DNA of 64,000 bases, from the NCBI GenBank assembly GCA_001606155.1, contig LODT01000041.1:310001-374000 (forward strand). The letters are read 5' to 3'. Source of the DNA: Tieghemostelium lacteum. Taxonomy: Eukaryota; Evosea; Eumycetozoa; Dictyosteliales; Raperosteliaceae. The notes below the pieces were generated by a model. The model had not been told where the DNA came from. It was given only the letters and a program-made list of their open reading frames with translations, and ran no database searches. The translations under genes and the position numbers were made by a program. Positions 18,328 through 36,397 of the stretch are shown here, in pieces; positions within the stretch are counted from its first letter, which is position 1, and the number at the start of each line of letters is the position of its first letter.

Positions 18328-18583
18328 TATATAAATAATTTAACATCTATTTAATACAAATATTTAATAAATTTCTAGAAAATGGTGTGGAGGTGGGTGA
18401 GATCTCAATACTAAAACTAAAAAAAAATTAAAAAAATATAATTAAAAAAAAAAATAATAATAGAGTTTCTATTTGTTTTTTATTATAATTATTATTATTA
18501 TTTATAATAATATAGTTTTGAAATTGTGTTGTTGTAGTTTAAACTGTTTTTGTAATTTTTGATTTTTTGGAGTGTGTACATAT

Positions 18584-20532
18584 CTATGAATAATTTTGAT
18601 ATATTAAAGTGAATATAACAATTAAAACTAACATATTTATAATGATAATATGTTCTTGTAAAAATAATAAAATCACATCTTGAATTTTACTTGGTTTTCT
18701 ATTGACAATAACTTTTGATTTGTTGTTACTAGTTACTGAATGACTGTGTTTTTTACTAGTACTATTGTTGTTCTTATTAACATTGTGTAACTGAGATACT
18801 GGTTGCTGTTTACTTGAATTACTAGATTTAGAATTTCCATTCTTTTTCTTATTTTGAGTGTTCTTTTTAGATTTTGATGGAGTATCTAATATCTTATTAC
18901 TTGGTTTATAGTTAATACTACCAGTACTAATCTTTGCGGCTGTTGAACTTGCATCAGTTGGTATATCTGAACAATCATCCAATTCAGATTGTTGAGATAC
19001 TAATTCATCTTCAACAAACTCTTCTTCTTCCTCCTCTCTTTCAACTTCGTCATTCTTTGTTGCAACCTTTGAGTTTTCCTCTGAAGATTCAACAGCTTGA
19101 GGTGGTGTTGAAATTAGCATTTCATCCTCTTTTACAACTTGTTGCAGCTGTTGTTGTTGTTGTTGTTGTTGTTCTACATTTGGTACTGATACTTGTTGTT
19201 CAAGTACCTTTTCAAGAACTGGTTCTTCACATTCAATTGCATTCACAATTGAAATTGCTATAGGTACTGGTTGTGATAAAGGTGATGTTTCAATATTATT
19301 ACATGTAGTTGATGATGTTGGTGATTGTTTTAATTCTACACTTTTACTAACTATAATATCCTCTGGTGGTGGTGGGGGTGGTGATGGGGTTGAAGATTGT
19401 TGTTCTTCATTTGATAATGATGTAGAAGATGATGATTTTGAGAGTGGGGTTGAAGAGGATTTTTTTCTATCAACTTTATCTTTTTTACTGGTATTCAAAG
19501 AGAATGGAATTGTAATAGAAGGTGAAGAGATATGTTTATCAATAGTTCTACGATTGTGATGTTGAGGTGTTCCATTGGTATTAGGTGTCTTTGCTAAATT
19601 ATCTGAACTACCATTCTGACTATTTGTCAGAGTAAATCTATTATTACCATTATTGGTATTTCTCTGATTATAATACTGATTGGAAGGAGATGAAAACCCA
19701 TTGCTACTATTTTTAAAATTGATACCAATTGGTAAAGATGACGTCGACTGGCTCTTTTTATGACGATAATTGTTGCTATTACTGTGTTGAGGTTGTTGAA
19801 CTTGTGGTGAATCTGGTAGAAATCCATTCAATGATGAATGAAGTGAAGGATGAGGAGATGTAGGAGTTACAGGTTTATTATGCAGGGAATATTTAAAATT
19901 ACAAATATTCAATTTCTCTGTAAAATCCTGTATTGTCTGATCGATAATCTCTTGATTTTCACCAGACTTATTCCAAACACTGATAATGTGTCTATTGGCT
20001 CTGACAGAGACAACAAAACCACAAATATCATAAGAGTGTTGTAACTGTTCACCTATAATAAATAATATAATTTTTAAAACCACCTGAGAGGTGTCTCTGC
20101 CGCTGCTAGAATGGAGAACCCATTTACCACCTTTACTATTCTCAGGGTCTTCCCACATTGGCTCTATACCCTGTTTGAATAGTCTCAGGTTGGCACCTTC
20201 AGGTAATCTACCAATATCAATAAAATTATCCCAATATCTCCAAAATCCCTGCAATTTTCAAAATTTCTATTAATATTTTTTCATTCCATAATTTTAAAGA
20301 TATTTGAATGCATTAAGATCTTACCTGAGCAGTATTAAAGTTTCCTAAATTCTTTATAAATAATTTATAACTATCTGAAGATTGTCCTTTAGGTACACCT
20401 TCATCATAAAAAAATGTCCATTCATATTCTAAATAGAGTAATTCCTCTTCTTTTGTTTCTGTTGATACTTGATTTTCCTCTTTTTCCGGTTTTGTTATAG
20501 TTGAACAACTTAATGTACTATCATTTATTTCC

Positions 20533-20564
<32 letters not shown>

Positions 20565-21029
20565 CTCTTCTTCTTCTTCCTCCTCTTCTTCTTCTAGATC
20601 TTCAAGTTCAAGTTCCCCAATTTCTTCCTCTTCTTCTTCCTCCTCCAAATCATCTTGGTCATAGAGTTCATCATCATCAATGTACTCATCTTCTTCATCC
20701 TCATAATCGTTAAAATCCTCTTGGGTATCCTCTTCTGAAGAATCTTTTAAATGAATTTCTTGGATATCTGCAGTATTGTCATTTTCAAATACTTGTACTT
20801 TTAAAGATGCCAAATTTGGAGATAACATTTTACCTTTGGTAATTGGAGTAGTGTTGTTGTTACCATGGTTACTATTGTTACTGCCATTACTGCTGTACAT
20901 TTGCTGTTCCATCTTACAAGATTGGTAATTACCATTACTGATATTACTATATATTTCCTTGTCCATTCTGTCGTGACAATGTATTGTATTATGGTTTAGG
21001 TACAATGCATCTGACACATTTTCATGCAT
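18584..21029 (-). CDS. eIF4E-family cap-binding protein (4EHP-like) with C-terminal membrane tail
   Basis: Two exons, 20325..21029 and 18584..20248, GTAAG donor, 789 residues. The cap-binding core runs from about residue 195 to 370: YEWTFFYDEGVPKG, SSDSY, GFWRYWDNF, LFKQGIEPMWEDPENSKGGKW, IGEQL, ICGFVVSVR, IISVWNK. The Trp-Glu pair that binds the cap base (PMWED) is present. The position of human eIF4E Trp56 is Tyr, as in 4EHP (eIF4E2), while the Trp43 position is kept. Before the core lies an acidic Glu run of about 18 residues. After it come some 380 low-complexity Ser/Asn/Gln/Thr residues, including poly-Pro and poly-Gln. The last about 30 residues are strongly hydrophobic (LLFLQEHIIIINMLVLIVIF), which looks like a tail anchor. 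The function is inferred to be membrane-linked translational control. Confidence 0.85.
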
Positions 21030-34525: not shown

Positions 34526-36112
34526 TTATATAAAAATTAATTTATAAATAAAAATGAATATTAAAAGTAAAAAGAATAGTGTTTGGAAATGAGGTTGCAT
34601 CCTAGTCCATACGCTATGACCACCAGTAGAATGACCAAGTTTCAAGACTTTAAGTGATTTTGGTAGTTTTGCAATTGGGAATTCATTTAGAGTGTAGACA
34701 GTCTCTTTGATGATTAGTGTCTCTAAATTTGGTGGTAACCCATTTTGAACTAGATTCAAAACACCATGAAGTTGTTTGACACTAAGTGACTTTAAAGATG
34801 ATGGAAATATACATATTGGTGTACTGAGTATTATAGGACCATTCAATTTCATCTTTTCTAAATTACTAGGCCATATATTGGCAACCATCGAAGGGAAGTT
34901 TAAACCATAGGAGAAGTCAATAGTAAGAGATTGAACGGAATTTGGAATTTGACCAGGAACCAAATCAACATAGCTACTATACCTAATTTTTAACCTTTTA
35001 ATGCTGTTTGGGAACTCTAGAGGATAGGTTTTCTGGCATATGATTTCACAGTGTTTTACAGAAGGTGGGATGATGTTACTGTCAATGTCTCTGTCAATAG
35101 TAAATGAAGAGAGATCTAAATAAAGTTTTTGAACTCCCATTGGAATAGATCCTTTTTCTAAATTATTAGAAGGTACCGCCACTAGTTGAAGATGTTTTAC
35201 TGAAGAAGGAATGATATGAGGTTTTAGTGATCTAGTGAATTTTGTAGTTTGTTTAGGTTTTAAAAATGACAGATATTCAACAGATGTTGGTATAGAACCA
35301 ATTGTAAATTCAACATTACAATGGTCAGTATTAATATCTAGAGTGGTAATTGAATTTGGTAATATTCCTTTTTCAATTCTCTCTATTGATCCATTTAAAA
35401 TTAAATGCTTTACACTTGTTGGGATATCACCTTTTCTTAACACTGATTTTCCTAATCCTAATATTTCAATATGATTTGGTATTTCCAATTCCAAATCATA
35501 AGATTTTCCAAATATTAACTTTTTTAGGGATGATGGAAAATGAATTGCACTATTAAAACTGTCACCTAGATAAAGTTCCACTAGATTACATGGTAATCTA
35601 TTATAATTAAAATTATCTATTATTTGGTTATATACATTTCCAAAATTAATTTTAATTAATGATTCTGGATAACTATTATTATCTATATTATTGTTGTTTA
35701 AATTAAATGGACATTCAAAGATTAAAGATCGAATGGTATTTGGTAATATTGATTTCCAATGATCTATTGTCTGATTAAAATAATGAAAAATTAAATCTAA
35801 AATATCCAATGAGGATAGAGATGGTCGAATATATTCAAAGTGTTCTTCATTGTTGATTATAAGAGTTGTGAATTTTGGTGGTAATTTAAATGAACTATTT
35901 AATGGTGATAATTTTGAAAATTCCTGACAATAGTTGATTGGATAGTTATAATATCTAATTGAATTTCTAAATGAATAGGTAGATTTACAAATACTGATAA
36001 ATTGTATTATATCTCTATTGGTTTTTAAATGTTTAATAATTTCAATCATTGTAAAGAAATGACTTATATACTTTCTATTGTCAATTCTATTCCATATGTA
36101 AATACTAAACAT
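34526..36112 (-). CDS. FNIP-repeat protein
   Basis: Dictyostelid-type FNIP (leucine-rich-like) repeat protein, 528 residues from the ATG at 36112. A TTG four codons upstream is not a plausible start. The head (FSIYIWNRIDNRKYISHFF) resembles the opening of other FNIP proteins. From about residue 90 on there are repeated units with IPxSVKxL or LPxSLKxL cores (for example IPTSVKHLIL, IPNSVQSLTI, FPSSLKSLSV, LPKSLKVLKLG), about 22 residues apart in pairs. The C-terminus (LFFLLLIFIFIYKLIF) is hydrophobic, which is unusual for the family and may be a membrane tail. FNIP proteins often pair with F-box-like heads, but their targets are unknown. Confidence 0.85.
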   Translation of the reverse strand: MFSIYIWNRIDNRKYISHFFTMIEIIKHLKTNRDIIQFISICKSTYSFRNSIRYYNYPINYCQEFSKLSPLNSSFKLPPKFTTLIINNEEHFEYIRPSLSSLDILDLIFHYFNQTIDHWKSILPNTIRSLIFECPFNLNNNNIDNNSYPESLIKINFGNVYNQIIDNFNYNRLPCNLVELYLGDSFNSAIHFPSSLKKLIFGKSYDLELEIPNHIEILGLGKSVLRKGDIPTSVKHLILNGSIERIEKGILPNSITTLDINTDHCNVEFTIGSIPTSVEYLSFLKPKQTTKFTRSLKPHIIPSSVKHLQLVAVPSNNLEKGSIPMGVQKLYLDLSSFTIDRDIDSNIIPPSVKHCEIICQKTYPLEFPNSIKRLKIRYSSYVDLVPGQIPNSVQSLTIDFSYGLNFPSMVANIWPSNLEKMKLNGPIILSTPICIFPSSLKSLSVKQLHGVLNLVQNGLPPNLETLIIKETVYTLNEFPIAKLPKSLKVLKLGHSTGGHSVWTRMQPHFQTLFFLLLIFIFIYKLIFI

Positions 36113-36397
36113 TGCATAATACAATTATTTTGTAAATATAAAACATAATTGATACCCTATACATTTTTAATGTTGTCAACATTCTAAATTGGTGTGTTTT
36201 ATTTGAAATGGGGTGTGGTTTTTTAAAACTTTAAAAATAGATTGATGATATTTGACTTTATCTTCATTAGATATAAATTTATCCGTTCCAAAATGCAATA
36301 ATCTAATCAAAAAAAAAACAGATTACTTTATAGGTGATGGATAAAATCAAATTTACAAAAATTCTTACAAATTTATTTGATAAAAAACGAACGAAAG

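Follow-up and report, generated by a model that had tools for sequence, protein, structure and literature searches.

Can a cap-binding protein of the eIF4E family be built into a membrane? The question is raised by a minus-strand gene of the dictyostelid Tieghemostelium lacteum, at 18584-21029 of the 64,000-nucleotide stretch of contig LODT01000041.1 that we analysed (the window; positions are counted from its first letter). The gene has two exons and a predicted product of 789 aa. This begins with an acidic region that includes a long run of Glu; then come an eIF4E core, a polar linker and, at the end of the protein, a hydrophobic helix. To our knowledge, the eIF4E-family proteins described so far are soluble, and the portions of the open-access PMC literature used here report no membrane-anchored member of the family. 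We think that the window gene probably encodes a cap-binding protein held by its tail in a membrane of some kind. Our fuller proposal, to which we give a probability of roughly 0.4, is that tail-anchored cap-binding proteins arose in this amoeba lineage as a small family, now two diverged paralogs, whose members would keep capped mRNAs at the surface of the endoplasmic reticulum (ER) or silence them there.

The core (residues 194-360 of 789 in the alignment) identifies the family. The PF01652 profile scores 109.6 bits against exon 2 alone (cut-off 28.7; E 1.7e-31). Among PDB sequences the spliced core has its best match in eIF4E type 2 (4EHP), at 111 bits, compared with 92 bits for the best other eIF4E (2wmc), about 82 bits for 1ipb and similar chains, which we take to be human eIF4E, and 58 bits for eIF4E type 3, the lowest-scoring type. 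Aligned to the family, the core carries W43, F46, Y56, A69, W73, W102, E103, K112, R157, N159, I162 and W166. The cap-contact residues that serve as the criterion of the eIF4E superfamily (W102, E103 and W166) are all present, the cap contacts K112 and R157 are kept too, position 56 is Tyr, and the dorsal W73 is retained. By score and by pocket residues, the core appears nearest to 4EHP.

At the other end of the protein, a 17-mer within the last 45 residues has a mean Kyte-Doolittle value of 2.97, while the remainder stays at or below 1.1 in 19-residue windows, so that there is only one hydrophobic segment and it is C-terminal. On a second, biological hydrophobicity scale the same 17-mer scores -3.64, favourable for insertion. 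The hydrophobic end to which an earlier note had drawn attention is thus seen again, although on the second scale it falls near the boundary when 19-23 residues are taken. After the polar linker the tail is composed almost solely of I, L, V, F, M and T. AlphaFold2, given exon 2 only and four alignment rows, predicted a helix at residues 521-553 of 554 (block pLDDT, the predicted local distance difference test, 79-94); the model is otherwise poor (mean pLDDT 45.0; predicted template modelling score, pTM, 0.26), the core being badly modelled and the tail helix the only confident part. The helix ends four residues before the stop, those four are uncharged, and a basic stretch precedes the helix.

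The same layout occurs a second time. A search of the organism's own genome (23.3 Mb in 43 contigs; all match counts from it are lower bounds) gave at least 8 exon-level matches, which we read as six eIF4E genes including the window gene. One of the others, L009 (1527-4124, minus strand), has an 808-aa model with its parts in the same order: a core, a linker of about 520 aa (500 residues separate the core from the last 45) and a C-terminal hydrophobic helix, the protein ending in LIAVLLVLFLGFLLKYFFA with one Lys near the end. On the second scale its tail scores -2.0 for 19 residues. The tail-anchor layout described in the earlier note is therefore borne out by the lone C-terminal helix of the window protein and strengthened by a second eIF4E gene built alike, and we read both proteins as tail-anchored. 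Judged by eye, the first introns of the two genes interrupt the same aligned codon in phase 0, before G-F, which is a weak sign that they are sister genes; two further paralogs, L011 and L012, share an intron two codons upstream of that position (also by eye). No hydrophobic C-terminus was found in L012 or L013, and the last listed frames of L010 and L011 lack a hydrophobic end, these two models being incomplete and further exons possible.

How often would such a tail be met by chance? We sampled 95 stop-to-stop frames of at least 200 aa, which are not verified genes, from the window and 20 stretches of 10 kb, the target being excluded. A hydrophobic segment no more than 12 aa from the stop was present in two of them and a lone segment in one, so that the probability that any of the five other eIF4E genes would carry such a tail by chance is about 5% at 1/95 and about 10% at 2/95. 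The lone case is an open reading frame (ORF) with FNIP repeats (window 34529-36124, minus strand; PF05725, E 2e-38), the last 16 residues of which are strongly hydrophobic.

If the proposal is correct, the C-terminal helix would be inserted into the membrane post-translationally, and the linker would let the core reach across the cytosolic surface and hold capped mRNAs there. The residues Tyr56 and Ile162 are shared with 4EHP and suggest that the cap is bound less tightly, by a protein that represses or holds mRNA, perhaps together with a GIGYF-like partner. Such a partner is plausible on the basis of the genome sequence. Two matches to the GYF domain were found in the own genome, one of them in an ORF of the locus L017 (1-2472, minus strand; 62.3 bits), and the ORF beside it holds KTKYSKDELLNLYDP, which fits Y-x4-L-Phi with Thr at the first Tyr place of the GIGYF1/2 motif YXYXXXXL-Phi (PMC466957, in part). 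The GYF ORF and the adjoining ORF with the motif together resemble a relative of GIGYF. As candidate insertion machinery, the profile of the ArsA/Get3 family matched three adjacent gene pieces on C24 and three short stretches elsewhere in the genome.

Under the proposal, neither a signal peptide nor an RNA-binding adaptor would bring an mRNA to a membrane; the cap-binding protein would do so itself, and translation might be under direct control at an internal membrane. The proposal also touches on mammalian GIGYF2, a partner of 4EHP, which the part of the review used here places at the ER and Golgi in steady state; many of its targets are linked to the ER, and of 21 protein-coding ones 15 encode membrane, glycosylphosphatidylinositol (GPI)-anchored or secreted proteins (PMC12249416). 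An eIF4E built into a membrane would offer a direct and genetically simple test of whether mRNAs can be localised or silenced at an organelle by tethering alone.

Several observations weigh against the proposal, some of them bearing on whether the tail is more than chance. The tail could be an accident of AT-rich DNA, in which loss of a former stop lets the frame continue through A/T-rich codons for Ile, Leu and Val; the protein would then be cytosolic, or the tail would mark it for degradation. Of 1399 noncoding open stretches, 15 (about 1%, AT-rich) attain the 2.97 of the window tail, 30 are at least as hydrophobic as the L009 tail and 154 attain 1.9. The GC (guanine plus cytosine) content of the last 25 codons and stop, 0.154, resembles the 0.173 of the 3' flank. 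A codon score that includes residue choice favours noncoding DNA by -4.4, -5.6 and -5.2 nats over the last 25, 40 and 60 codons, whereas synonymous choice alone is undecided for the window tail (null P 0.34, 0.50 and 0.26). The GC content of the tail is also low given its residues (P 0.005), but this does not favour a noncoding origin, because only 26 of 1285 noncoding stretches are equally low, as are 4 of 95 ORF ends and 16 of 1841 inner blocks. We consider such an accident unlikely, since a lone tail of this kind ends only one of the 95 sampled frames and L009 has the same layout, its last 25 codons leaning to coding (null P 0.013; 0.11 and 0.09 for 40 and 60 codons).

Even a real helix might serve something other than a membrane, packing on a partner or self-associating, since a complex can bury a hydrophobic helix at the C-terminus of one of its members; the product would then be a soluble or granule-bound relative of 4EHP. 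In favour of this, the best 19-, 21- and 23-mers of the window tail score +0.77 to +0.84 on the second scale, slightly unfavourable for insertion. We regard it as very unlikely, for two genes share the C-terminal hydrophobic layout, and a stretch made up almost wholly of I, L, V, F, M and T that closes the chain behind a polar linker is how a tail anchor usually looks. A different membrane is another alternative, and one that overlaps our proposal in taking the anchor as given: the protein could sit in the outer membrane of mitochondria, or at some other organelle, and act on mRNAs for proteins of that organelle. The basic stretch before the helix would suit this, but mitochondrial tail anchors have as a rule a basic C-terminal flank, and no basic residue follows the window helix, while L009 has one Lys near its end. 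Granted an anchor, we hold the mitochondrial or other location to be a minority chance and the ER to be the likely site, because four uncharged residues follow the helix and a basic stretch precedes it.

The remaining points against a tail-anchored family at the ER concern relatives and partners. L009 is divergent, with 26.5% identity and W73 lost, and its core scores only 59 and 54 bits. No relatives were found in viral contigs or in contigs of bacterial and archaeal genomes by searches for stray amoeba DNA, which were weak because several patterns are of low complexity and 593-600 stretches were tested in each. The Get3-family profile is not specific, because it also matches 14 of 14 prokaryote controls. 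The link to the ER through GIGYF2 is loose, because repression of its ER-linked targets is reported to be independent of 4EHP binding (PMC12249416, in the part used).

An earlier claim that the mix of Trp43 and Tyr56 fits neither 4EHP nor eIF4E3 cleanly is not supported. Both residues are confirmed by the alignment, and the combination was considered as a new mix and rejected, as it is already published: Joshi et al. (2005) describe Trp43 alongside a substituted Trp56 in Class III, in Class II of fungi and in part of the protist proteins; by their account every identified member of Class III keeps Trp43, as do the few Class II proteins of fungi, and a protist subgroup has Trp43 with Trp or Tyr at 56 (PMC1260017, in the excerpts used here). 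The Class II definition of that survey, in the same excerpts, asks for W43 to be replaced by Tyr, Phe or Leu, a change that the few fungal Class II members lack, and the window core likewise has Trp there. In the excerpted 2024 revision, Class II is defined by W56Y/F together with replacement of R/K162 by I, V or L, and W43 is unused (PMC11791286). With Y56 and I162, the window core has the residues of Class II so defined, and the mix therefore calls for no new class.

The paralogs give this some context. L013 is a Class I member (156 bits with 5t46), and L012 scores 97 bits with 4ue8 and 93 with 4EHP. L011 is closest to 4EHP (117 bits; tree support 89). It has, on the minus strand at about 1870-2850, an in-frame TAG near the end of the core, after which the same frame continues coding-like; the TAG is possibly a tiny intron, a sequence error or a sign of gene decay. 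L010 (2544-3968) is closest to eIF4E3 (78 bits; tree support 92), with Phe at the Trp56 place. The 2005 survey, as excerpted, recognised Class III solely in Metazoa (PMC1260017). In L009, a Lys stands at the W73 place, and the protein may be without the usual partners. Its linker holds repeated tryptophan motifs, NAWS among them: GVNAWSTG twice, ENAWSS and ATWGN.

A maximum-likelihood tree of 13 cores, in which several reference pieces are partial and L011 is included only up to its in-frame stop, leaves the window protein unplaced (support 43). In the best tree it adjoins L010 and eIF4E3 with this support, and a tree constrained in this way has equal likelihood. All six constrained placements survive the approximately unbiased (AU) test (0.144-0.605). 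The grouping of the window protein with 4EHP and L011 has the AU value of 0.144 and is kept also by the Kishino-Hasegawa (KH) and Shimodaira-Hasegawa (SH) tests, but is marked as excluded by bootstrap proportion (bp-RELL, 0.024) and expected likelihood weight (c-ELW, 0.0345); when L009 is added to this group, no measure excludes it. A pair of the window protein and L009 lies 0.29 log units below the best tree, L009 being likewise unplaced. The 4EHP-like core claimed in the earlier note thus stands by score, Y56 and I162, while the tree that the note had called for gives the core no supported position.

The gene model runs from an ATG at 21029 to the stop and agrees with the coordinates first proposed for the gene; its features are listed in the table below. 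The coding span of exon 2 is 20248-18587 (minus strand), with the frame open as far as the stop. The linker is about 400 aa long, and between the core and the last 45 residues we counted 384 residues, where about 380 after the core had been claimed. No GTRDG donor was found in 19000-18341, which includes the last 416 bases of the gene, and no strong splice donor was found within exon 2. We therefore rejected an obvious intron that would remove the tail, there being no donor of the patterns searched, although a weak donor is possible. A single AATAAA was present in the scanned 19000-18341, 100 bases past the stop. A second intron near 20070 was likewise rejected, since reading through gives the core helix that would be expected there, and this stretch can be aligned to 4EHP with one gapped residue. 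By eye, the neighbours are an alpha-mannosidase-like gene on the plus strand, upstream of the cap-binding gene, and an ammonium transporter-like gene on the minus strand, downstream of it.

Table. Features of the window gene (positions in the window).
Feature	Positions	Strand	Remarks
Exon 1	20325..21029	-	Acidic, low-complexity N-terminus; initial strands of the eIF4E core, with the equivalents of W43 and Y56
Intron 1	20249..20324	-	76 nt, GTAAGA...TTGCAG, phase 0, directly before the GFW(73) motif
Exon 2, first part	19874..20248	-	Remaining eIF4E core: W73, W102, E103, K112, R157, I162, W166
Exon 2, linker	18662..19873	-	Long, polar (S, N, P, Q, K, T, E); no tryptophan in the part counted
Exon 2, last 25 codons	18587..18661	-	C-terminal hydrophobic helix, proposed tail anchor
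Stop codon	18584..18586	-	AATAAA on the minus strand starts 100 bases downstream, at 18484

The window protein can be set beside several known systems. Like the tail-anchored clients of Get3/TRC40, it has one C-terminal hydrophobic helix and none elsewhere; no eIF4E-family member is listed among these proteins in the portions of the open-access literature used here. The fungal F-Class VI eIF4E proteins have carboxy-end extensions of 160-850 aa, similar to the long extension of the window protein, but differ in having insertions of 18-25 aa, and the word "transmembrane" is absent from the main text of the paper describing them (PMC11791286). With eIF4E Class I the window core shares the family profile, W102, E103, W166 and the dorsal W73, while it differs by Tyr56, Ile162 and lower scores (at best 92 bits). 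4EHP/eIF4E2 (Class II; nCBP in plants) is 38.7% identical to the window core over 142 columns and has the same Y56, W73, W102, E103, K112, R157, I162 and W166, the two differing at 43, 46, 69 and 159 among the positions compared; to this core, the window protein adds long N- and C-terminal parts and the hydrophobic C-terminal helix.
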